Positions 1,685 through 44,394 of a stretch of DNA of 46,808 bases are shown piece after piece. The notes beneath the pieces are model-generated. The model searched no databases and had not been told where the DNA came from. It was given only the letters and a program-made list of their open reading frames with translations. How positions within the stretch are numbered: position 1 is the stretch's first letter; every line of letters starts with the position of its first letter. The DNA lies in assembly GCA_001776785.1 (NCBI GenBank), contig MFDF01000001.1, forward strand, positions 1 to 46,808, written 5' to 3'. This DNA comes from Candidatus Daviesbacteria bacterium RIFCSPHIGHO2_12_FULL_37_16 (GTDB lineage: Bacteria > Patescibacteriota > Microgenomatia > Daviesbacterales > UBA10151). A program made the translations under genes and the position numbers.

Positions 1685-4156
1685 ATGCTACAAAATTCAG
1701 GGCTTGATATTAAAAAATCTTCCAGGCATGAGGTTAAAGAGATAGAGGTGTCTGACGAGTACTCAAATTTAGTAAATTTGGCTTCTAAAAAAGACCTGGA
1801 GATTATCTTTTCCCAGGTTGGGATTGGAATTACTGTCCAAAAACCAAATGGTGAGTTGATGTTTGCCAATGATATTGGGGCAAAGATGATTGGTTTTAAA
1901 TCTCCAGGAGAGCTTATAAATATCCCTGTTAAAAAAATTATGGAAAAATTCGAGGTTTTTGGTGAGGATGGAGGGAGTATTCCAATTGAAGCATTTCCAG
2001 GCAGGAGGGCCCTAATGGGTGAGTCACCAAAAGAGATGGTTTTGAAATTTAAGATTAAGGATTCAAAGGTAGAGAGGTGGGCATCTGTTAAGGCAACTCC
2101 TGTTTTTGATAAAGATGGAAGGGTGATTTTTGCAATAAATACTTTTAATGATGTTACAGAGAAAAAAAGGGTTGAGATTGAGCTTAGAAATTCTGAGGCC
2201 AGGTTAAAATTTTTAACTAAAGCCAGTAGGGTTTTAGCATCCTCTTTAGATTATAAAAAGACTTTAAAAAGTGTGGCCAGATTGGCAGTGCCTCATATAG
2301 CTGACTGGTATGCAATAGATATGCTTAATAATAAGGAGGTAGAATTGCTGGTAGTTGCGCATGTTGATCCAAAGAAAGTAGCCTGGGCAAAAGAGCTTAG
2401 GAAAATTGACCCTGTTGATTTGGATGCACCAAACGGCATTGCTAATGTTTTTAGAAGCGGCAAGTCAGAAATTTATCCTTTAGTTACAGAGGAATTAATA
2501 AAAGCTTCTTCAGTTTCCAAAAAGGAGATTGAGGTAATAAAAAAACTTGGTCTGATATCTGTAATGCTTGTGCCTATAAAAATAAGAGGGAGAGTAGTTG
2601 GGGTAATAACATTTGTCAGCGCTGAATCTAAAAGGGAGTTTAATAAGTCTGATTTAGAACTGGCTGAGCAACTGGCAGGCAGGGCAGCATTAGCTATAGA
2701 AAATGCATCTTTATATAAAAAGGTGGAAGAGGAGAAAAAGAGGCTAAGTAATGTTGTGGCAAATGTCCCTGGAGTTGTCTGGGAAGCATATGGGGAACCA
2801 GGAAGCCAGGAGCAAAGAATGGCTTATGTGAGTGAATATATTATAAGACTTTTAGGATATTCAGTTAAAGATTGGACATCCAGACCTAATTTCTGGCTTT
2901 CAATTGTTCACCCCGATGATGTAGAGGAGACTCTTAAGAGGACAAAAGAAAATTTTAGGAGAGGGAGCGGAGGCGTAGTTCAGTTCAGGTGGGTGGCTAA
3001 AGATAAAAGAGTCGTCTGGGTTGAGGCGCAGACAGCAGTTATTAAGAATAGCGAAGGTAAGAGTGTAGGGATGAGAGGAGTGACTGTTGACATTACATCA
3101 TCAAAAGAAGCAGAGCTTAATAATCATAGACTGGCTGCAATAGTTGAATCTTCTGATGATGCAATTATAGGCCAGGATCTAAAAATGAGGATTACAAACT
3201 GGAATTTGGGAGCAGAAAAACTTTATGGATATAGTGCAGATGAGATGGCTGGAAAGTCGATTTTGATAATTGTACCAAGAGATAAGAAAGAAGAAATGCG
3301 GGAGATAATGGAGGTAATAAGGCTTGGGGAAGGAGTTGACCATCTGGAGACTACCAGAATTACAAAGAATGGCAGAATGATTGATGTATCATTGACTATA
3401 TCACCTCTGAAAGACACATCGGGAAAGGTTATAGGAGCATCAGGGATAGGTAGGGATATATCTTCGTCAAAAGAGCTTGAGAGAAGGAAAGATGCGTTTA
3501 TCGGAATGGCATCACACGAGCTAAAAACTCCAATTACTTCTATTAAAGCTTATATCCAGGTACTGCAGAGCAAATACAGACAAAGCAGGGATGAGGTGGC
3601 CTTGAAATATCTTGATAAAACCAATGACCAGCTTAATAATTTGACTGAACTGGTAAATGACTTATTAGATTTGTCTAAGATCCAAACAGGCAGATTGGAG
3701 CTTGAGAAACAGCAGTTTAATTTGGGGGATTTAGTCAGGGATACGGTGGAGACTATGCAGGGGTTGACTCAAAGACATAAAATTTATCTGGAAGGGAATG
3801 AAAATGTGGATATTGTGGGTGATAAAAACAGGATTGGCCAGGTGTTAATAAACTTAATAAACAATGCTATTAAATATTCTCCTGAAGCTGAAAAAATAAT
3901 ACTAAATGTTTTCAGGAAGGGTAATAAGGTGACATTTACTGTAAAAGATTTTGGGATTGGAATCTCAAGGACTCATCAAAAAAGGATTTTTGACAGGTTT
4001 TACAGGGCAGCAGGAAAGAGTGAAAAAACTTTCCCCGGGCTTGGGATTGGACTTTATATCTCATCAGAGATAGTAAGAAGGCATGGGGGAAATATCTGGG
4101 TGGAATCCGTTAAAAGGAGAGGGTCAACGTTTTTTGTTTCTTTGCCTTTGAGGTAG
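1685..4156 (+). CDS. cytoplasmic multi-PAS/GAF sensor histidine kinase
   Basis: The protein has no membrane segment, so it should sense an internal signal. Domains in order, numbered from the ATG at 1685: PAS (about 35-155), GAF (about 180-340), PAS (about 350-475), PAS (about 480-595), HisKA with the phospho-acceptor in ASHELKTPIT (His about 611), then HATPase_c with the N box NLINNAIKYS, DFGIGIS, the F box IFDRFYRA and GLGIGLYIS. All kinase boxes look intact. A TTG at 1673 is in frame but touches the -10 box, so the ATG at 1685 is preferred. A single-domain response regulator starts 7 nt downstream and is the likely phosphotransfer partner. The ligand is unknown. Confidence 0.88.
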   Translation: MLQNSGLDIKKSSRHEVKEIEVSDEYSNLVNLASKKDLEIIFSQVGIGITVQKPNGELMFANDIGAKMIGFKSPGELINIPVKKIMEKFEVFGEDGGSIPIEAFPGRRALMGESPKEMVLKFKIKDSKVERWASVKATPVFDKDGRVIFAINTFNDVTEKKRVEIELRNSEARLKFLTKASRVLASSLDYKKTLKSVARLAVPHIADWYAIDMLNNKEVELLVVAHVDPKKVAWAKELRKIDPVDLDAPNGIANVFRSGKSEIYPLVTEELIKASSVSKKEIEVIKKLGLISVMLVPIKIRGRVVGVITFVSAESKREFNKSDLELAEQLAGRAALAIENASLYKKVEEEKKRLSNVVANVPGVVWEAYGEPGSQEQRMAYVSEYIIRLLGYSVKDWTSRPNFWLSIVHPDDVEETLKRTKENFRRGSGGVVQFRWVAKDKRVVWVEAQTAVIKNSEGKSVGMRGVTVDITSSKEAELNNHRLAAIVESSDDAIIGQDLKMRITNWNLGAEKLYGYSADEMAGKSILIIVPRDKKEEMREIMEVIRLGEGVDHLETTRITKNGRMIDVSLTISPLKDTSGKVIGASGIGRDISSSKELERRKDAFIGMASHELKTPITSIKAYIQVLQSKYRQSRDEVALKYLDKTNDQLNNLTELVNDLLDLSKIQTGRLELEKQQFNLGDLVRDTVETMQGLTQRHKIYLEGNENVDIVGDKNRIGQVLINLINNAIKYSPEAEKIILNVFRKGNKVTFTVKDFGIGISRTHQKRIFDRFYRAAGKSEKTFPGLGIGLYISSEIVRRHGGNIWVESVKRRGSTFFVSLPLR

Positions 4157-4163
4157 GATTTTT

Positions 4164-4529
4164 ATGTCAAAAATACTGGTAATAGATGATGATAGTGGTA
4201 TCCAGGATGCATTAGCGGCTATTTTGGAATTTGATGGACATGAAGTCCAGCTTGAGGTTAGTGATGAGCGGGTTTTGACAATGGAGGATAGGGAACTTCC
4301 GGATTTAATAATTTTGGACTTGTTACTTTCAGGTAAGGATGGAAAAACAATTGCAAAGGGTTTTAAAAATAATGACAGACTTAAGCATATACCTATCATT
4401 ATGCTTTCTGCCCACCCCAGTGCTCAACAGTCAGCATTAGAGTCAGGAGCGGATGATTTTTTAGCCAAGCCATTTGATATGGATGTACTACTGAAAAAAG
4501 TCAGGAGTAATTTAAAAGATGACAGATGA
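4164..4529 (+). CDS. single-domain response regulator (CheY-like)
   Basis: A receiver domain of 121 aa with no output domain. The acidic pair D9/D10, phospho-acceptor D52 (in LIILDLLL), S82 and K102 (in AKPF) are all present. It probably takes phosphate from the hybrid-free kinase just upstream and acts by protein contact rather than by DNA binding. Its stop overlaps the start of a 40-codon membrane-peptide frame by 11 nt (ATGACAGATGA), which suggests translational coupling. Confidence 0.88.
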   Translation: MSKILVIDDDSGIQDALAAILEFDGHEVQLEVSDERVLTMEDRELPDLIILDLLLSGKDGKTIAKGFKNNDRLKHIPIIMLSAHPSAQQSALESGADDFLAKPFDMDVLLKKVRSNLKDDR

Positions 4530-4641
4530 GTCTACAGGAGTAACTGATGATATCAGACAGGGATGTTTTGGAAGCCTGATTTTGCTTTTAGGATTATTAG
4601 GAGGATTAGGGGTTTTAGTTTATCAGATTATTAGAGTGTAG
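4519..4641 (+). CDS. small predicted membrane protein
   Basis: A 40-residue frame with an acidic N-terminus (MTDESTGVTDDIR) and one hydrophobic segment (LILLLGLLGGLGVLVY). It starts inside the last codons of the response regulator and ends 27 bp inside the convergent SGNH hydrolase gene. I do not recognise a family. Its position makes it a candidate membrane partner of the two-component pair, but the frame could also be fortuitous. Confidence 0.4.
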   Translation: MTDESTGVTDDIRQGCFGSLILLLGLLGGLGVLVYQIIRV

Positions 4642-5403
4642 AAAGTCTGCGACCTCTGCACTTATAAATTTTATCCCTTCAATTGATGGGTGTATGTTAT
4701 CTCCAGGGTTTAAAAAGTCTTTGTTGCCATCACCATCTTTTAAGGATTTCTCATAAACATTAATAAGGGGGATATTGTGAGAGTTGGCATATTCAATGTG
4801 GTTTTTTAAATAAGTAATCCTTTCACTTACCCACTCTTCCCGCTTTTGGGGGGTTAATTCAACAGAGCCCTCCCCAAAGTGGGTTTTACTAGGAGCAATG
4901 GTGGCTAAGAAAACTATTTTTATATCAGGCTTAACTTCGTGGACTTTAGAAATTATTTCATCAAGGGCTCGGTTTTGTATTTTTAGACCTTCTTCTAAGG
5001 GATATTCTGAGAGGGGATTATTAGCAAAAGATTCAATTATTAAAAGGTCAAGATTTGTTTGCAAAAGGGGTGGGTATTTAACCCCTAAATAATCTGTTTG
5101 CTTTTCTAAAACTTCTTTGGCAAAAAGGATGTTTTTAGAACCAAAACCATAGTTTTGAATGACAATTTTAGAGTTTGGATAATAGGTTTTAAGATTTGAA
5201 AGGATTTCATCACCAGAAGGGCCTAAAAATGAAGTCATGGAATCCCCAAAAAGAATTATTTTAAAAGCAGAATCATCAGTTAAGAGTTTGGTTTGGGCGC
5301 CCAAGACATTTAATCTCTGGTCGACTGCAGTCTGAAATGGGGTTAGGATGATAAAAATTACCAGGAGTAATGAAAAAATCATTAAAGACAGATAAAATTT
5401 CAT
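4615..5403 (-). CDS. SGNH/GDSL-type hydrolase, exported or membrane-anchored
   Basis: An N-terminal hydrophobic segment (about residues 4-22) acts as a signal peptide or anchor. The SGNH core follows: block I GDSM with the nucleophile Ser55, NYGFGSKN as block II, an Asn in IIESFANNP as block III, and D235-x-x-H238 in GDNIHPS as block V. Such enzymes are esterases, lipases or acyl-group hydrolases acting on lipids or on cell-surface glycans; the substrate is not predictable here. A TATGGT box on the minus strand ends 8 nt before the ATG, with no Shine-Dalgarno site. The gene diverges from the DUF84 NTPase. Confidence 0.82.
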   Translation of the reverse strand: MKFYLSLMIFSLLLVIFIILTPFQTAVDQRLNVLGAQTKLLTDDSAFKIILFGDSMTSFLGPSGDEILSNLKTYYPNSKIVIQNYGFGSKNILFAKEVLEKQTDYLGVKYPPLLQTNLDLLIIESFANNPLSEYPLEEGLKIQNRALDEIISKVHEVKPDIKIVFLATIAPSKTHFGEGSVELTPQKREEWVSERITYLKNHIEYANSHNIPLINVYEKSLKDGDGNKDFLNPGDNIHPSIEGIKFISAEVADFLHSNNLIN

Positions 5404-6098: not shown

Positions 6099-6557
6099 AT
6101 GGATAAGGATTTAGAGGAATTTTTAAAAACAATTGATAAATCTACTTTTAGTAATGAGCCTTTTTTACAGAAAGTTGAGAAACCCTGGGGTTATGAATTG
6201 ATCTTTACACCTGAAGGACTGCCCTATTCAGGAAAGATTATGCACTACCGGGCTGGAAAGAGAAATAGTTTGCAGATCCATGATAAAAAAATAGAAACAG
6301 GTTGTTTAATGTCTGGAGAGTGCAATTTAATTATTGAGAATGATCAGGGGGAGATGGAAACAATTAAGATGGAGCAGGGAAAAGGATATACAGTTAAAGT
6401 AGGACAAAAACATAGATATCAGGGGGTAACAGATTGTGATATTTTTGAGGCAGCTATGAGTGAGGTTGGTGTGACTTTTAGACTCGAGGATGATTATGCA
6501 AGAGGAAATGAGGATGATGAGATGAGGAAAGAAGAAAATAGAGGCTGGGGGGGTTAA
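6099..6557 (+). CDS. cupin-fold protein, type II mannose-6-phosphate isomerase-like
   Basis: The KPWGYELIF motif, followed by a cupin core (NSLQIHDKKIETGCLMSGE, then GQKHRYQG), matches the cupin domain of mannose-6-phosphate isomerase / mannose-1-phosphate guanylyltransferase C-termini. The first cupin motif keeps one His and a Glu rather than the usual H-x-H, so metal binding may differ. It may be a sugar-phosphate isomerase or a binding protein. The start at 6099 (MDKDLEEF) is preferred because anything further upstream would translate the hairpin repeats. It converges on the methyltransferase gene with a 4-bp overlap of stop codons. The C-terminus is highly charged. Confidence 0.68.
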   Translation: MDKDLEEFLKTIDKSTFSNEPFLQKVEKPWGYELIFTPEGLPYSGKIMHYRAGKRNSLQIHDKKIETGCLMSGECNLIIENDQGEMETIKMEQGKGYTVKVGQKHRYQGVTDCDIFEAAMSEVGVTFRLEDDYARGNEDDEMRKEENRGWGG

Positions 6558-8806: not shown

Positions 8807-9442
8807 ATGCAAAGGGGTTTTCTGCTTATTCCTTTAGTGATTGCTTTGGGGCTTATTGGACTTTCTGGAGTGATTTATTACAGGTATTCTGATATAAAAC
8901 AGGTTGAGAAAAATGAGGAAGTCTTAGAAGTTTCACCTGCAGATGAAGAGGGTGAGAAAGTTTATTCAGGTTTGGGGTTTGAATTTAAGTATTCTGTGGA
9001 ATTGGAGGTTAAAGAGGATAGTGAGGAGGAATATAACAGAAGGGGAAATGGGGATTTTAGGAAGAATTTTACTTCTTATGTCCAATATGCCCCTGCAGAA
9101 TTTTTAGGGGCAGTTTCTGTTTTAAAAGAAGATAAAGATTTTGATAAAGCTCCTCTGACTATCTGGGTATTTAATAATCCAAATGGTTTAACACCTGAAG
9201 GGTTTTACAATGAATATTGGTATTACCCATTTTTGTGGGGGATGTTTAATCCTCCTGATAAGAAAAAAGATGCCCCAAATCTAGAAGCTACAATTTCAGG
9301 GAAATTAGCAAAGGGGGCAGAAATTTCTTACCAGATAAATTCTCCTAAATATTTTAATCTAAATAGTGGGGGGAAGATGTATCTATTTAGGGTGTTAAGT
9401 GGAGGTGAGGAGATTTTGGGAAGTTTTAAATTTTTAGAGTAA
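8807..9442 (+). CDS. membrane-anchored surface protein, paralogue of the preceding gene
   Basis: 211 aa with an N-terminal helix (about 4-23), an acidic linker and an external domain opening YSGLGFEFKYS, which parallels YKGVGFELAYP in the previous protein. A TATGAT box (8795-8800) lies 6 nt before the ATG, so this gene has its own leaderless promoter. I do not recognise a characterised family. Confidence 0.62.
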   Translation: MQRGFLLIPLVIALGLIGLSGVIYYRYSDIKQVEKNEEVLEVSPADEEGEKVYSGLGFEFKYSVELEVKEDSEEEYNRRGNGDFRKNFTSYVQYAPAEFLGAVSVLKEDKDFDKAPLTIWVFNNPNGLTPEGFYNEYWYYPFLWGMFNPPDKKKDAPNLEATISGKLAKGAEISYQINSPKYFNLNSGGKMYLFRVLSGGEEILGSFKFLE

Positions 9443-10684: not shown

Positions 10685-12763
10685 TTAGGAGTTGAGCCAG
10701 TCGTCATCATCTTTTAATCCTTTTTCATAAACATCATCGTTGAAGTTATCCTTTGGAGAGTATTCATCATAGCTTTTGTTGGCTAATTTTTGATCTAGTA
10801 ATTTTTCTGGGATAGAGGATAAAAATCTTGAGGGGAGATTATTGGATCTGGTACCAAAATATAGCCTTGATCTGGTGTGAGTTAAGAAGAGTTTATCTTT
10901 AGCCCTTGTGATGCCAACATAAGCTAACCTTCTTTCCTCTTCCATCTCATTTGCGTCAAGCATAGACCTTGAGTGAGGAAAAAGGCCCTCCTCCATTCCA
11001 ACTAAGAAAACTACTGGGAATTCTAAGCCTTTAGATGCATGGAGGGTCATTAAATGGACTGCATCTTTTTGCTCTTTTAAGTTTGAGTCTGGCATTTGGT
11101 TATCCTGAATTAAAGCTACATTTTCTAAAAATTGGGTCAAATCTGGGAACTGTTCTGCAACAGAGCGTAACTCTTTAACATTTTCTACCCTCATTTTGCC
11201 CTGTTCTGTCCCATCATCTAAATAAGCTAAATAACCTGTTGTAGTTAGGATTTGATCCATAATGTTCATAGTAGTTTGTTCGGGGTCCTGCCTCCTCAGT
11301 TTCCCAAGTGCGTCCTCGGAGGTTAACAAACCTCCTGCGGTCGACGCTCGGGATCCCTCTTCGGAGTCACCCCTCACAAACGTTGGTAAGAGTTCGTAGA
11401 ATTTTTGGGCGCGGCCTTTGCCAATTTTTTCTATCCTTTTTCTGGCAATAGAATCATCCGGATTGGCTACTAATTTTAAATAGGAGAGGACATCTTTTAT
11501 CTCTTTTCTTTCATAAAATTGGACACCCCCTGTTAATTTATAAGGAACACCTGATTTTAGGAAAGCTTCCTCTAAGGCCCTGGATTGGGCATTAGTCCTA
11601 TACAAAAGTGCAAAACTTGAGAGATTGATGGGTCCTGTCGCCTCGGTGTCCCGCGTGCGTCCTCGCTCATTGTCATTCGCTGCGGTCGACGCGCGAGATC
11701 CCTCCTCGGCGCCACCCATCAACCGCCTGATACGGTCTATTATAAATAGTGCTTCTTCTACTTCAGATCTGGCCTGGTAGAGGGAGATTTTAGGACCTTC
11801 TTTTTTATCAGTCCATAAAGTTAATATTGGGTGGGTTTTATTTTCAGAGATAACAGAGTGGGCAGCATCCAGGATAGTCTGGGTGGATCTGTAGTTTTGT
11901 TCTAAGTTAAAAACCTTAGCTTCTGGATAGTCTTTTTGAAAATTAACTATATTTCTAAAATCTGCACCCCTAAAGCCATAAATAGCCTGGGCTGCGTCAC
12001 CAACTACGCACAAATTCCTGTTTCTTTTAGCCAGGAGTTTAATAAGCTGGTATTGAGCTGCGTTGGTATCCTGATATTCATCTACTAAGATATATTCAAA
12101 CTGGTTTTGGTATTTTGCTAATGTTTGGGGATTAGTCTCAAAAAGTTTGATGGTGTACATTAAAAGGTCATCAAAATCCAAAGCAGAATTTCTTCTTAAG
12201 ATCTTTTGGTATTCTAAATAAACGTTAGCTACTATTTCCTGGAAGTAGCCTCTGGCATATTGAGGGTATTCAATGTCTGAGATTAGTTCATTTTTTGCTC
12301 CTGAGATAGTGTGCCTGATAGAACTTGGATTTGTTTTTTGGGTAGCAATATTTAAATTACCCATAGCTTCTTTTATTGCATCCAGGGCATCATTTTCATC
12401 ATAAATAGAAAATCCAGGTTTTAAGCCTAAAGCAAAGCCTTCTTTTCTTAAAATTCTGGCACAGATACTATGAAAGGTGCCCATTAAGGGGAGAGCTGAG
12501 TTATGAGTTATGAGTTCAGAGTTAAGAAGTTTTAAGATGCGGTCGCGCATTTCACCAGCGGCTTTATTGGTAAAAGTTACAATAAGAATTCTTTCTGGCT
12601 GGATTTTCTTTTCTCCAATTAAGTAAGCAACTTTATAAGTGAGAACTCTGGTTTTGCCTGAGCCTGCACCTGCTAAAACTAGAGTAGGGCCATCTGTTGC
12701 TTTAACAGCTTCTTGTTGGATTGGGTTTAGGTCTTCTAGGAGGGCAGAGGTAGGTTGGGTCAT
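10685..12763 (-). CDS. UvrD/PcrA superfamily 1 DNA helicase
   Basis: A 3'-5' helicase for repair and replication restart. Walker A is AGAGSGKT (31-38), Walker B VDEYQDTN, motif III GDAAQAIYGFRGAD, motif IV NYRST, motif V LHASKGLEF and motif VI RRLAYVGITRAK; all are intact. Two foreign-looking blocks encoded by GC-rich palindromes (11282-11373 and 11627-11720) are read in frame. Both contain EEGSRASTA and both replace variable surface loops. A third, low-complexity insert (NSELITHNS, 12493-12529) lies before GTFHSICARIL. The start overlaps the istB stop (ATGA), so the transposition gene pair abuts the helicase with no spacer. Confidence 0.9.
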   Translation of the reverse strand: MTQPTSALLEDLNPIQQEAVKATDGPTLVLAGAGSGKTRVLTYKVAYLIGEKKIQPERILIVTFTNKAAGEMRDRILKLLNSELITHNSALPLMGTFHSICARILRKEGFALGLKPGFSIYDENDALDAIKEAMGNLNIATQKTNPSSIRHTISGAKNELISDIEYPQYARGYFQEIVANVYLEYQKILRRNSALDFDDLLMYTIKLFETNPQTLAKYQNQFEYILVDEYQDTNAAQYQLIKLLAKRNRNLCVVGDAAQAIYGFRGADFRNIVNFQKDYPEAKVFNLEQNYRSTQTILDAAHSVISENKTHPILTLWTDKKEGPKISLYQARSEVEEALFIIDRIRRLMGGAEEGSRASTAANDNERGRTRDTEATGPINLSSFALLYRTNAQSRALEEAFLKSGVPYKLTGGVQFYERKEIKDVLSYLKLVANPDDSIARKRIEKIGKGRAQKFYELLPTFVRGDSEEGSRASTAGGLLTSEDALGKLRRQDPEQTTMNIMDQILTTTGYLAYLDDGTEQGKMRVENVKELRSVAEQFPDLTQFLENVALIQDNQMPDSNLKEQKDAVHLMTLHASKGLEFPVVFLVGMEEGLFPHSRSMLDANEMEEERRLAYVGITRAKDKLFLTHTRSRLYFGTRSNNLPSRFLSSIPEKLLDQKLANKSYDEYSPKDNFNDDVYEKGLKDDDDWLNS
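11282..11373. repeat. in-frame palindromic element E1 in uvrD
   Basis: A 92-bp GC-rich element bounded by GGGGT and ACCCC with internal inverted repeats. It shares GGGTCCTG, CGTCCTCG, CTGCGGTCGACGC and CACCC with element E2. It is read on the minus strand as part of the helicase. Confidence 0.75.
11627..11720. repeat. in-frame palindromic element E2 in uvrD
   Basis: Bounded by GATGGGT and ACCCATC, with an inner GCGTC/GACGC pair. It encodes EEGSRASTA in the same frame as E1. It replaces the loop that in other PcrA/UvrD proteins links IRRL to the FAILYRTNAQSR strand. Confidence 0.75.
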
Positions 12764-13575
12764 AGAGGGAAAATTTGAGTAGATTGCCCAGTTTTGCCTA
12801 ATCTGTCTTTTATTCTATATGAATCACCCTCTATTAATACTGGGTGAGCTTTTTGGTTGATTCTATCTATAATCATAGTTGAACTATGTTTATCCCCAAA
12901 TGCGTTTGTCCATTGGGAAAAGCTTTTATTGGAGGTAAAAATTGTTGAATTTTTTAGATGACGATTTAGAAGAAGCTCGCTTAAAAATTCAGCAAGTATT
13001 TCATCCGGTTGAAATAAAGCAACTTCATCCAAAATTAAGAGTTTTGGTTTTGCCAGGTTTGTGAGTAGTTTTCTGAGTTCATATTTGCTATCTCTAACTT
13101 TGTCTATAAGTTCATGCAGAGATCTGAGTGTTAGAAACCTTACATCAAAACCATTATAAATAGCTTTTAGGCCTAAGCTTTGGGCAAGGTGAGTTTTACC
13201 GACTCCAGTTTGGCCTAAAAAGATAATGTTCTCAGCGTTCTCAATAAATCTGCAAGAGGCGAGTTCAAAAATTAGGGTTTTATTTATTTTTTTGGGAAAG
13301 GAAAAATCAAATTCTTCAAGAGTTTTGGGTGAATCAAAATGAGCTTGTTTAATCCATCTTTCTGTCCGGTTGGTTTCTGCCCAATTGAGTTCAGCTAATT
13401 GTAAGTGCTCAATTAATTCAAAAGGAGTCCAAGATTCTTCAAGTGCTTTTTTGGCGATTTTTTTATACAAGGTTAACATTCCATTAAGGCTTAAAAATCT
13501 AAAATTTGCTTCTATCCTTCCTTGTTGGTTGGGCAGTTTTGATATTAGGTATTTATTGATCCTAGTTTTGCCCAT
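12760..13575 (-). CDS. istB: IS21-family helper ATPase IstB
   Basis: A DnaA/DnaC-like AAA+ ATPase that assists the IstA transposase in target selection. Walker A is GQTGVGKT (121-128) and Walker B LLILDEVAL; a sensor strand (IFTSNKSF) and the arginine-bearing MIIDRI segment follow. The length (271 aa) is slightly above usual. It follows istA by 5 nt, and its stop codon overlaps the uvrD start by 4 nt, leaving no room for a right-hand terminal repeat of an insertion sequence. Confidence 0.88.
   Translation of the reverse strand: MGKTRINKYLISKLPNQQGRIEANFRFLSLNGMLTLYKKIAKKALEESWTPFELIEHLQLAELNWAETNRTERWIKQAHFDSPKTLEEFDFSFPKKINKTLIFELASCRFIENAENIIFLGQTGVGKTHLAQSLGLKAIYNGFDVRFLTLRSLHELIDKVRDSKYELRKLLTNLAKPKLLILDEVALFQPDEILAEFLSELLLNRHLKNSTIFTSNKSFSQWTNAFGDKHSSTMIIDRINQKAHPVLIEGDSYRIKDRLGKTGQSTQIFPL
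12770..12783 (+). repeat. 14-bp direct repeat, right flank of istAB
   Basis: AAAATTTGAGTAGA here, in the last codons of istB, is identical to 14809-14822 at the other side of istAB and to the second 91-bp repeat further right. It may mark a duplication or recombination border. Confidence 0.4.
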
Positions 13576-13580
13576 ATTAT

Positions 13581-14753
13581 TTAGGAAATTAGTTTATCAT
13601 AATAGCTTAAAGATCGGGTTTTTAGTTGAGGATAATGTTTCCAGGCTTTTTCTGGAGTAGTGTTTGTTCTAGGGGGATGGGTCTTTTTGGGTTTGAAATG
13701 TGCAGGGTTTTCAATATGCTGACCTTTTTCTGTGTATAGATTATGTTGGGCAATTAACTGATTTTTAAAATAAATATTAACAAGTTTTACTCCCTGTTGA
13801 CAGGTTTCTCTTAGGAGTAACTTTTTCCAGGAAAATTCTTTGGGTACAGAATAGAAGTTTTGTTTATATTGGATCCATTGATCTTTAGTGCTGAAGCGAG
13901 TTAAAAATGGGTTTACCTGATAATCTGGTAAGCCATTAGGGAAGTGGAGGAATTGTTTTTCTGTCAACCATAATTCTAAAGGTCTTTTGTGGGTATTGCT
14001 GTGGATACGGGCATTCGCAATTTGATTTACCCAGTCAGTTGCTTTGTGGTTAAGCTCATTTAGTGAAGTCAAATTTCTTTGGTGTTTTGTGCCCTGCATA
14101 AAGTTGTTTCTGATGTATTTTATGACTGCTTCAACTTTGCCTTTATTTCTTGGCCAATAGGGAGGTGAAGGATTTATTTCAAAGCCATAGAAATTTGCAA
14201 AATCTAAAAATCCGAGATTGAAGTTAATTTTTCTGGTTCCATCAGGGAGTTTTTTATTAGAAATGATTACTGTTTTAGTGTTATCATAAACGATTTCTTC
14301 AGGTATGCCTAAAGCCTTAAAGGCATTGATATGGCATGTTTCAAAAACTGAGAGTTTTTGGGTGGTTGTGAATTCTATATAAATAGCCCGGCTAAAACTT
14401 AAGATGTATACAAAACAATAAAGCTTCTCAGCTTTATGATTAATAGTGACTTCTCCAAAATGTGCCCAGTCAACTTGGGCTTGTTTTCCTGGTTCTGTTT
14501 TATCTATAATTCTTGCAGTTTTATACTTAGCTCTGTTTAACTTAACCTGAGTTTTATAGGGGAAAGTCTTTTTGCAAGACGATTTTGTCCAGAAGTCTGA
14601 TAAATCTTCCTTTAAATATCTATATAGAGTTATATATGAACCATTAAAACCTTGATTTTGCAATTCATGAAAAAGTTTTTTGCCATTGGTTACTCCTTTT
14701 TTAATTCTTAGGATTAGGTAATTTCTGAATGGGTTAAGGTCTTTTTTTTGCAT
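13581..14753 (-). CDS. istA: IS21-family transposase IstA
   Basis: A DDE integrase-fold transposase. Counting from the ATG at 14753, the triad is D95 (QVDWAHFG), D157 (VYDNTKT) and E208 (NKGKVEAVIKY). The family normally starts with an HTH of about 40-50 residues before the region corresponding to NPFRNYLILRIKKG; that first HTH is missing. An in-frame TTG at 14810 would extend the protein by 19 residues into the 91-bp repeat but does not restore an HTH. A TATAAT box lies on the minus strand between the two starts. The element looks old or immobile, although both reading frames are intact. Confidence 0.85.
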   Translation of the reverse strand: MQKKDLNPFRNYLILRIKKGVTNGKKLFHELQNQGFNGSYITLYRYLKEDLSDFWTKSSCKKTFPYKTQVKLNRAKYKTARIIDKTEPGKQAQVDWAHFGEVTINHKAEKLYCFVYILSFSRAIYIEFTTTQKLSVFETCHINAFKALGIPEEIVYDNTKTVIISNKKLPDGTRKINFNLGFLDFANFYGFEINPSPPYWPRNKGKVEAVIKYIRNNFMQGTKHQRNLTSLNELNHKATDWVNQIANARIHSNTHKRPLELWLTEKQFLHFPNGLPDYQVNPFLTRFSTKDQWIQYKQNFYSVPKEFSWKKLLLRETCQQGVKLVNIYFKNQLIAQHNLYTEKGQHIENPAHFKPKKTHPPRTNTTPEKAWKHYPQLKTRSLSYYDKLIS

Positions 14754-14793
14754 TGAAAAATTTAGCTTAGATTTTGGGTGATTATATACTATG

Positions 14794-14884
14794 TGTAAGA
14801 TTTCAGTCAAAATTTGAGTAGAATTTTCAATATTTGAAGCTAATTATTGAAAATTTATGCTATAATAACATTGAAATCTTACAC
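14794..14884. repeat. 91-bp repeat R, left copy
   Basis: Identical to 16563-16653 in the same orientation. It has terminal inverted repeats (TGTAAGATTTCA and TGAAATCTTACA) and an inner inverted pair (AATTTTCAATA and TATTGAAAATT). A TGCTATAAT extended -10 lies near its right end. It looks like a miniature transposon beginning TG and ending CA. Confidence 0.85.
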
Positions 14885-15511
14885 GGGACGAAGCGAATCG
14901 AATTGAAGATAGATTTCAAGACGCGATCCGATTACAGAGAGTTCTTCCGCGAACCCTTTCTCATTAGCAAGACGGACGCCATTCGTTACGAGGAATATCC
15001 GCGGGGCCTGGCTTTTAACCACCATGGAGAGGATTTCGCTAAACCGAGGATGTAGCGTCGGCTCGCCGCCGCTGAGCATAATGACAGGGGGGAGCAAGCT
15101 CTGGCTTTGACTGGCCTTCAACATGCGATTCACTACGCCCAGTTCTTTTATTCGGCCAGCTCCAGGAAACGATTCAGCGCTGCAAGTCGGACAGGCCATA
15201 TCGCATTCGTGGAGTAATTCAAGAATCGCGGCGGCCAGATAAGATGAACCATTGACGTTGGCCTTGTTCTGGCGCGCCTTGAGCGGCGCTTGGCTTCCAG
15301 AGACAGGGCTGCCAGGAGCGGCCCGTGCTACCGCCTGGCACAGCTCGAAGTACTTGAGATCAGTCGAGTAGACGCCGGCCTGAACCCCATGGATACCGCA
15401 CGTCTTTCGCAGCTCCACGTTGTTGCCGACTGTCTCCAGATAAGCGGGAACTCCCTGAAAGCAGATGTCGCAGACGCCAATCCCGCTGTCCATGAACTGA
15501 GAACCCCGCAT
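14879..15511 (-). pseudogene. radical SAM protein, 3'-truncated
   Basis: The N-terminus has paired cysteines (VCDICFQG, then KTCGIHG) like the zinc-ribbon head of large radical SAM enzymes related to MJ0619. The cluster motif ECDMACPTCSAESF and SGGEPTLHP follow. It ends at FDSLRP exactly where the 91-bp repeat begins; the repeat supplies the stop. The second half of the barrel is missing, so it should be inactive. Codon use is GC-rich, unlike the host genes. Confidence 0.7.
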
Positions 15512-15533
15512 GAACCTTAGAAGTTCTCCTCCT

Positions 15534-15887
15534 TCACCCAGCGCTCACTGAGGTCATCTCATTGACCCAGTTCAGGTATCCGATTGAACCCGCGCTCACC
15601 GGGACGCAAATGATCTCCGGCGTCTCATAGGAATGGGCCCCCAGCAATGCTGCCTCAACCGCGGGATAGAGCTCGCGCCTCGTCTTGATCAGTATTAGCT
15701 TCTCAGACTCTGTCTCCCGCTGACCCTTCCACATGTATGAACTATTGATATCTAGCGACTGAATACATGCCGCAAGTTTTCCTTCCAGCAGCACGGAGAC
15801 TAACGTCTCTAATTCATCAGCAGACGCACATGTCGTTAAAACTATGCAGTATTGGAATTCATTGTTCGACTCGCCCACGTCACTCAT
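15534..15887 (-). CDS. cutA: CutA-like divalent-cation tolerance protein
   Basis: A complete 117-aa CutA1 domain: YCIVLTTCASADELETL, LLEGKLAACIQ, SSYMWKGQ, KLILIKTRRE, HSYETPEIICVPV and YLNWV. The family forms compact trimers of uncertain role linked to copper tolerance. The start at 15887 is supported by an AAAGGA Shine-Dalgarno site 6 nt upstream. It overlaps the preceding stop by 8 nt (ATGAGTGA). It is the only whole gene in the GC-rich segment. Confidence 0.85.
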   Translation of the reverse strand: MSDVGESNNEFQYCIVLTTCASADELETLVSVLLEGKLAACIQSLDINSSYMWKGQRETESEKLILIKTRRELYPAVEAALLGAHSYETPEIICVPVSAGSIGYLNWVNEMTSVSAG

Positions 15888-16562
15888 TCGTAGTCCTTTC
15901 ATGGTTGTCACTCCTGGCCTCGGATCGGTCGGGCCCACTCCAATAGGGCATCGATGGAAATTCCTGAACGTGCCTCTCTAGCAATTCAGCCAATCGTTCT
16001 CTTTCTTGTGCCATCGCCATCAAACCGTGTGCCCATTCGCTATCAAAATTACATCCCATCCAATGACCAAGCATGTGCCTCCCAGAGCGATGAATCACTA
16101 GATATATAGTACCTCGTGCCATGACAGAGTCTTCAATAGCAACATACGTCCCAATCACGTACTGACTATCATAGACAGAACATTGAGCTTTCCAAAGGTA
16201 CCCGCCATCGGGATTCTGTTCGCTTTTACTCCGGTTGGCAATATAAAGATACTCGCCTTTCCATTGTAAGTCAATCACTTCGAAGTTAATATTCTCCGAG
16301 TGCTCCACACTTGTTTGCCATAATGCATGCCATTCACCTTGAACAACTCTATTATTGAAAGATGTGCGTTTGAAGAACATTGAAAGGTCGGACTCATCAT
16401 CGAGTTCATTCTGGTATTGGTAAGGGTGCCCATTCGGATGTTTCGCGGAGTAGGCATCGTTGTAAAGCGATCGTAACTCATCAGCTTCTTTGCTACGCCA
16501 TCGGAAAATCCTTTCCAGAAGTGCCGAACCTGGTAGTGATTCGCCTCGTTCAATATTCGCGT
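15880..16562 (-). pseudogene. unknown protein, 5'-truncated
   Basis: The frame is open from the right-hand repeat border (ANIERGESLPGS) to the stop at 15880. A Met-initiated part would start at 16380 (MFFKRTSF), but the coding pattern clearly continues upstream. It has a soluble, Trp-rich beta-type region (WKGEYLYIANRS, GTIYLVIHRSGRHMLGHWMG). I do not recognise the family. The missing N-terminus shows that the segment was cut out of a larger operon. Confidence 0.5.
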
Positions 16563-16653
16563 TGTAAGATTTCAGTCAAAATTTGAGTAGAATTTTCAAT
16601 ATTTGAAGCTAATTATTGAAAATTTATGCTATAATAACATTGAAATCTTACAC
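16563..16653. repeat. 91-bp repeat R, right copy
   Basis: Base-for-base identical to 14794-14884 and in the same orientation. After it the sequence returns to the AT-rich host composition. Confidence 0.85.
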
Positions 16654-17146: not shown

Positions 17147-17401
17147 ATGATTAAGTTATTAGATTTTTGGGCCGTGTGGTGTGGGCCATGCAGAATTATG
17201 GCTCCTGTTTTAGAGGAGATAAAAAAAGAGTTAGGGGATAAAGTTGAGGTTGAAGAGATAAATGTGGATGAAGACCCTAAAAAAACTGAACAGTTTGGGG
17301 TAATGAGTATTCCTACTTATGTGATTATGAAAGATGGTAAAGAAGTAGGAAGAAAAATTGGAGTAACCCCTAAGGCTGAATTGTTGAAGCTTTTGCAGTA
17401 A
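17147..17401 (+). CDS. thioredoxin
   Basis: A short thioredoxin (84 aa against the usual 105 or so) lacking the first strand and helix. The active site is W-C12-G-P-C15, and the cis-proline is in SIPTY. It reduces protein disulfides in the cytoplasm. An extended -10 (TGGTAATAT, core 17132-17137) ends 9 nt before the ATG, so the mRNA should be leaderless. Confidence 0.88.
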   Translation: MIKLLDFWAVWCGPCRIMAPVLEEIKKELGDKVEVEEINVDEDPKKTEQFGVMSIPTYVIMKDGKEVGRKIGVTPKAELLKLLQ

Positions 17402-43972: not shown

Positions 43973-44242
43973 ATGCCACTCGATCCAAAAATAAAACAGA
44001 ACATAATTGACCAATTTGCGACACACAAGGGTGATACAGGTTCCCCTGAGGTACAAGCAGCACTATTGTCTGAGGCGATTAAAAATCTAACCACTCATTT
44101 AAAAGAGCACACCCATGATATCCATTCCAGAAGAGGGCTTTTATCAATGGTTAATAAGAGACGCCGTTTACTACAGTATCTTTTGAAAAAAGATAACGAT
44201 CGATATAAAGGAGTTATTGATAAACTTGGACTGAGTAGGTAA
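43973..44242 (+). CDS. rpsO: 30S ribosomal protein S15
   Basis: 89 aa, standard length: [38 protein letters not shown] and the C-terminal [16 protein letters not shown]. It binds the central domain of 16S rRNA and commonly represses its own translation. A strong Shine-Dalgarno site (AGGAGG) precedes the ATG. The final third is followed by two further copies of its own C-terminal codons, separated by hairpin elements. pnp follows, the usual order. Confidence 0.95.
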
Positions 44243-44307
44243 ACGACGCTCTTGCGAGTACTTCGCTATTATTGAAATAGTTTTTTCAATAAAGGCTGCG
44301 TACTCTT
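44243..44307. repeat. hairpin element C after rpsO
   Basis: Starts right after the rpsO stop. CTTGC, then GAGTAC (44256-44261) pairing with GTACTC (44300-44305), with an inner stem TATTGAA/TTCAATA, then TTA. Confidence 0.6.
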
Positions 44308-44394
44308 AAGAGACGCCGTTTACTGCAGTATCTTTTAAAAAAAGATAATGATAGGTATAAGGGAGTTATAGACAAGCTATGGCTTTCGCGATAA
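44308..44394 (+). pseudogene. second copy of the rpsO 3' end
   Basis: Reads [24 protein letters not shown] then WLSR and stop. The first 17 bases match rpsO; the first 24 codons then differ only at synonymous sites. One amino-acid change (Gly to Trp) follows. It has no start and must be a former or alternative C-terminus. Confidence 0.72.

Follow-up and report, generated by a model that had tools for sequence, protein, structure and literature searches.

The systems described so far that come closest to the locus analysed here are the IS21 family of insertion sequences (IS21, IS5376), integrons including chromosomal integrons, CRISPR arrays, and TIME-COMP elements. Transposition of IS21 leaves a 5-bp target duplication, and IstA of IS5376 has two N-terminal DNA-binding domains, one of which, HTH-1, comprises residues 1-39; IstA shortened at the N-terminus corresponds to the cointegrase, which is better at processing IS21 tandems (PMC10122671). 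Our locus lies in a stretch of 46,808 nucleotides from a Candidatus Daviesbacteria genome (contig MFDF01000001.1), referred to below as the window. It shares with the IS21 family the genes istA and istB, which encode DDE and AAA+ domains, as well as TG...CA ends, but the repeat associated with it, termed here R, is a free-standing palindrome, the IstA of the window is devoid of HTH-1, and loci of this type (termed here array-type) show no 5-bp target duplication. They also lack the terminal repeat downstream of istB: in ordinary IS21 elements of the phylum (L046, L068/L083, L069, L087) inverted ends are present on both sides of istAB in all four cases, whereas no terminal inverted repeat follows istB in any of the four array-type pairs (the window, L033, L080, and L081).

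Integrons and chromosomal integrons resemble the R arrays in the presence of imperfect palindromic repeats (attC in the case of integrons), acquired DNA between them, an adjoining recombinase gene with a promoter nearby, constant orientation, and arrays that have lost the recombinase; toxin-antitoxin genes in the cargo (L037, L058, L039) are a further common feature. However, no tyrosine integrase IntI was found beside R arrays, which are bordered only by istAB, its relics or host genes, and the adjoining enzyme is a DDE transposase accompanied by an AAA+ ATPase. R ends with TGT...ACA instead of the attC core RYYYAAC...GTTRRRY, and the cargo comprises random genome fragments, often with cut genes, rather than single-gene cassettes. 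With CRISPR the R arrays have in common a repeat that is apparently copied with each acquisition, apparent growth at the leader side, and promoter elements in the leader. In contrast to CRISPR, there are no cas genes (cas1/cas2) among the named genes of their neighborhood, the repeats are 90-150 bp long, the inserts measure 0.4-2.7 kb instead of being short uniform spacers, and the arrays carry no sign of an immunity function. In TIME-COMP elements the cargo is bounded by two small inverted-repeat (MITE-like) elements, as it is in the window, but R arrays are not flanked as whole units by direct repeats (0/4), and R loci are multi-unit arrays at fixed sites with resident transposase genes.

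The locus in the window and its istAB pair

The two R copies of the window (14794-14884 and 16563-16653, Table 1) are identical in 91 of 91 positions. The palindrome proper is imperfect and comprises 90 bp, while the 91st base, C, belongs to a flank shared by both copies. The 12-bp termini, TGTAAGATTTCA and TGAAATCTTACA, are exact inverted repeats, and the window strand of R is predicted to form a strong hairpin (folding z = -4.7). The GC content of the DNA enclosed by R amounts to 50.9%, compared to a mean of 37.5% (sd 2.5) and a maximum of 44.0% among all other 1678-bp windows of the 46.8 kb. A first-pass annotation had described this segment as foreign, GC-rich and bounded by identical repeats, in which cutA is complete and two further genes are cut where the repeats begin, and had regarded R as a unit with TG...CA terminal inverted repeats linked to the adjoining istAB; our analysis supports all these points. 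The genes of the cargo are all on the minus strand. The frame of the one next to the second R copy is open through to the repeat, therefore its 5' end and start have been lost; searches of Pfam and NCBIfam gave no match for its product. The entire 1.02-Mb genome contains only these two copies of R and a single istA.

Both istB and istA adjoin the first copy of R. The window IstA aligns with the IS5376 transposase of solved structure (8b4h) with an E-value of 9e-63. HTH-1 is missing also from the IstA of another genome, G032 (JACPEZ010000005), where, as in the window, the stop codon of istB meets the start codon of the next gene directly; the istA of G032 has suffered an internal deletion and a frameshift. 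A promoter of the form TTGACT-17/18-TATAAT is predicted across R and its flank in five of five junctions facing istA or the methyltransferase gene, and in none of ten cargo-side junctions, while the two uvrD-side junctions without istAB (L034, L037) match it more poorly. As judged from these motifs, R supplies the -35 box of the putative istAB promoter. Since this box is situated inside the istA-proximal R, binding of IstA to R could autoregulate istAB.

Elsewhere the window contains a reverse transcriptase gene (27-476, Pfam RVT_1) and two direct repeats of 72 nt, 88% identical and spaced by 152 bp (44155-44378). Another reverse transcriptase (Pfam RVT_1) is encoded in L036 (11772-13804) beside two 120-nt stretches that are 85% alike, and resembles a diversity-generating retroelement.

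Table 1. Positions of features in the window
Feature	Position	Strand	Remarks
uvrD	10685..12763	-	left border of conserved site A
istB, AAA+ ATPase	12760..13575	-	stop overlaps uvrD start codon (ATGA)
istA, IS21-type DDE transposase	13581..14810	-	first ATG 14756; without HTH-1; catalytic D-D-E kept
predicted -10 box TATAAT	14781..14786	-	in leader between R copy 1 and istA; spacing 18 bp
R copy 1, istA-proximal	14794..14883	+	imperfect 90-bp palindrome, TGTAAGATTTCA...TGAAATCTTACA; C at 14884 belongs to the shared flank
predicted -35 box TTGACT	14805..14810	-	within R copy 1, reads outward to istA
foreign cargo	14885..16562	.	1678 bp, 50.9% GC
radical-SAM fragment, TrsS/Tes-like, N-terminal zinc ribbon	14885..15511	-	3' end cut at R copy 1
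cutA, whole, CutA1 family	15534..15938	-	true start probably a downstream ATG
ORF lacking its 5' end at R copy 2	15880..16562	-	frame open up to border
R copy 2, distal	16563..16652	+	same sequence as copy 1
thioredoxin	17147..17401	+	right border of conserved site A

Recurrence of the arrays and structure of the repeats

R was searched for in 95 relatives and then, with the use of a covariance model, in 45 genomes of the family (Candidatus Daviesbacteria). It is present in eight of the latter, including seven beyond the window, with 77-86% identity. A pattern scan of ~85,000 GTDB genomes detected R only in Daviesbacteria and Levybacteria, namely in Candidatus Daviesbacteria groundwater MAGs and in one Levybacteria MAG. 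Copies of R with different cargo, a prospect that had been raised from the window, were found both in the further Daviesbacteria genomes and in Levybacteria. The locus of G032 has the structure istAB-R-c-R-c-R-c-R-c-R, with five R and four different GC-rich cargos (c) of 393-932 bp, and a Levybacteria contig possesses three copies of R and two relics, separated by cargo. On either side of this entire Levybacteria array the promoter/start region of tpi is directly duplicated over ~47 bp (L058, 193-240 and 4602-4649), a length far beyond that of any IS21 target duplication.

Analysis of the neighborhoods reveals a conserved gene order, methyltransferase - [site B] - FemAB - SurA-like - ... - uvrD - [site A] - thioredoxin - MGMT-like - tpi. 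R occupies site A (uvrD to thioredoxin/tpi) in the window, G006, G015, G023, G042, and the Levybacteria genome, and site B (methyltransferase to FemAB) in G032, G029, G042, and G009. Most R copies are found at these two sites; one Levybacteria copy lies outside them (L060), in a GC-rich segment that is enclosed by another palindrome. The enclosing repeat is a different one with TG...CA ends (TGTCAAATTGCA...TGCAATTTGACA; 4478-4626 and 6335-6380) and may represent a second family of repeats within which an R array is nested.

It is always the same end of R that faces istA, uvrD or the methyltransferase gene, and within each array all copies have one orientation (2/2, 5/5, 5/5, and 3/3). In most R-bearing genomes istAB is absent from the vicinity of R, but relics persist beside R where the pair is gone, e.g. 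13 codons of istA (L038) or the tail of istB (L035), therefore the pair was once resident and has been lost repeatedly. The repeats proximal to istA are the most alike, a polarity read from two arrays: they are 100% identical in G032, and 96.5% identical in L082 (G366) versus 88.9-92.4% for other pairs. The distal repeats a and c of G032 are identical as well.

The IstA clade of the window is rare. Searches of 374 genomes of the class, 380 genomes of the phylum, and two further orders yielded only five loci (the window, G032, G181, G366, and G281), four of which exhibit R-like palindromes with foreign cargo beside istA, in two cases with unrelated repeat sequences. In G181 (L081) two copies of a 97-bp palindrome, 99% identical, surround 2.65 kb of DNA with 52% GC, in which there is a gene for tRNA-Gly and a cut one for an AAA-ATPase. 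G366 (L082) has three full copies and one partial copy of a 148-bp palindrome and three cargos, one of which includes an entire UvrA-like gene. The contig of G281 stops ~90 bp upstream of istA, and a search for another copy of this end was negative. The three repeat families have little in common beyond the TGT...ACA ends and the hairpin. As relatives of IstA elsewhere in the class, with 46-51% identity, those of L081 and L082 are accompanied by their own unrelated palindromes and foreign cargo. Intact copies of istA are confined to the window and L080 (the contig of the latter stops before any array), while the gene is broken in L033, L081, and L082; thus, most known loci of the clade are decaying. 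The window is therefore the only known array with an intact pair, and its two R copies are identical; as far as sequence can indicate, this makes it the best candidate for recent activity. As to the repeats of other sequence, the start of the distal copy in L081 (9982-10290) encodes the C-terminus of ribosomal protein S20 (rpsT), and in L082 a 41-bp piece of the 148-bp repeat occurs in inverted orientation at the far end of the array, just after dnaK (8905-8945).

Among 14 aligned R copies hardly any variation is seen in the outer stem of 14 bp, where a single compensatory change occurs; the inner stem is variable, with compensation. Changes on both sides are observed in 9 of 27 pairs, which exceeds all 500 shuffles and every slid register. 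The palindromic repeats between cargos fold with z from -3.3 to -6.2 and display covariation. Full R copies contain 70-79% A+T and end with TGTAAG/CTTACA or TGTCAG/CTGACA. No match to R was detected in Rfam, plasmids gave only partial, weak matches to AT-rich sequence, and neither R nor IstA was found in IMG/VR. We also noticed that on RNA folding the istA-to-distal strand of R beats its complement in 15 of 15 copies of the R1 family (window 14794-14883 and relatives), with G-T pairs outnumbering A-C by 44 to 11, which hints at a single-strand or RNA role. As a general reading this role was rejected, as the 148-bp repeat family shows the opposite strand preference.

Content of the cargo

We compared 22 cargos, 393-2649 bp in length. 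Most have a GC content of 0.48-0.59, in loci of 0.36-0.47; those of L036 and L038 are only mildly GC-rich, and the second cargo of L058 is AT-rich. They encode radical SAM proteins, CutA, a replication-relaxation domain, DUF4329, MazE/AbrB-PIN and HTH-PIN pairs, UvrA, CHAT, a PsbP-like protein, and tRNA. The MazE/AbrB-PIN toxin-antitoxin pairs of Daviesbacteria and Levybacteria are 60% identical. Toxin-antitoxin cargo (MazE/AbrB-PIN, HTH-PIN) recurs in L037 (7440-8158), L058 (350-1063), and L039 (8110-9023). In L058 and L060, otherwise different GC-rich cargo genes, whose products start with MSKE, are preceded by a common AT-rich leader of 125 bp (3147-3271 and 4655-4779, respectively; 97% identity).

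Neighboring cargos do not join into continuous genes across R once R is removed, and one pair of adjacent G032 cargos has a related 87-bp stretch. Cargo DNA gave no match to phages and plasmids, cargo proteins found nothing closer than distant homologs in plasmids and IMG/VR, so that no donor was identified there, and no cargo looks clearly viral. A search for defence functions returned generic matches only.

Proposed capture of DNA and alternative explanations

We lean towards the interpretation of the window as one locus of a DNA-capture array, in which an immobilised IS21-type pair duplicates R with each capture. The sequences themselves show the anatomy of the arrays, their constant orientation, cargo of foreign composition without target duplications, sites that are conserved, recurrence with other repeats that arose independently, and a promoter overlapping R, all of which point in this direction. 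What goes beyond these features is inferred: that the capture is done by IstAB, how it proceeds chemically, on which side arrays grow, where the DNA comes from, and how the cell might benefit. IstA (the DDE transposase) and IstB (the AAA+ target-binding ATPase) would recognise the ends of the ~90-bp R upstream of istA, and captured foreign DNA, e.g. after natural uptake, would be inserted into the array at R. The AT-rich repeat would be copied in the process to give R-cargo-R without target duplication. In chemical terms, IstA may free the 3'-CA end of either R strand, the two may be joined to both ends of a linear fragment brought in by IstB, and once the R strands have separated, filling of the gaps would yield two R copies; the high A+T content of R would help strand separation. 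As target duplications are missing, the orientation is uniform, and repeats are most similar next to istA, the simplest account is that each capture copies the istA-proximal R. New cargo would accordingly enter beside istA and arrays would grow from the istA side, with older cargo and repeats decaying outward. Natural competence has been documented in Saccharibacteria and competence genes are enriched in the phylum (PMC11665869), which makes incoming linear DNA plausible.

The strongest rival, to which we assign a rather low but appreciable probability, leaves the same product: homologous recombination with a resident R could integrate small circles that carry one R and foreign DNA, with IstAB having only made the circles or being incidental. 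A single crossover would generate exactly R-cargo-R in direct orientation and without target duplication, and a circle model has been proposed for directly oriented MITESen1 composites (PMC13367494). However, the GC-rich donor must then have carried R first, whereas R is confined to Daviesbacteria and Levybacteria among the ~85,000 genomes and absent from IMG/VR, and the recurrence of three unrelated repeats beside one IstA clade would be left unexplained. The first-pass annotation had suggested a miniature composite transposon; R-cargo-R would then be a TIME-COMP-like unit with two MITEs, moved by IstAB in trans. The TG...CA terminal inverted repeats of R and its position next to istAB agree with this proposal, and composites bounded by directly oriented MITEs do exist (PMC13367494), but we consider it unlikely: target duplications of at least 3 bp were found at none of 22 R copies, 10 pairs of cargo ends, and 4 outer borders, the arrays are multi-unit (up to five R in a row with different cargos), have one orientation and sit at two fixed sites across several genera, and the genome of the window has no further R copy.

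It appears very improbable that a GC-rich genomic island was invaded repeatedly by AT-rich R elements and cut into pieces. R is indeed an AT-rich palindrome of MITE size, and the 87-bp stretch related between two neighboring G032 cargos could be read in this way, but such insertions are at odds with the lack of target duplications, the single orientation, and the lack of genes continuing across R, as well as with repeats that lie exactly at the island borders and islands that differ each time. The other explanation offered earlier, an assembly chimera bridged by R, would suit metagenomic assemblies in which composition breaks exactly at the repeats. We regard it as extremely unlikely, because similar architecture occurs with three unrelated repeats in independent genomes, samples and contigs, including one of 609 kb, and because mis-joins cannot produce decayed R copies; a mis-join in the contig of the window itself is unlikely.

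If arrays do capture DNA by means of IstAB, a tentative proposal is that, next to integrons and CRISPR, they constitute a third type of locus for the archiving of DNA in prokaryotes, in which a domesticated IS21-type pair of the Microgenomates branch of Patescibacteria stores kilobase-sized foreign pieces between hairpin repeats. The putative capture route, which looks related to neither of these systems, seems to be previously undescribed: we found no description of it in publications about arrays linked to transposases, about integrons, or about foreign DNA of Patescibacteria, where subscription papers and bioRxiv were thinly covered and an earlier account is possible. DNA-capture arrays would then have a third evolutionary origin, in a DDE transposase instead of a tyrosine integrase or Cas1, and genome engineers would be interested in a compact IstAB-R system by which arbitrary DNA can be inserted at a defined repeat. 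For the organisms themselves, such arrays would account for gene acquisition by some ultra-small bacteria with reduced genomes. They would also keep a record of the DNA met by these bacteria, perhaps that of their unknown hosts; as the hosts of most Patescibacteria are unknown, the captured fragments could show whose DNA the cells take in.
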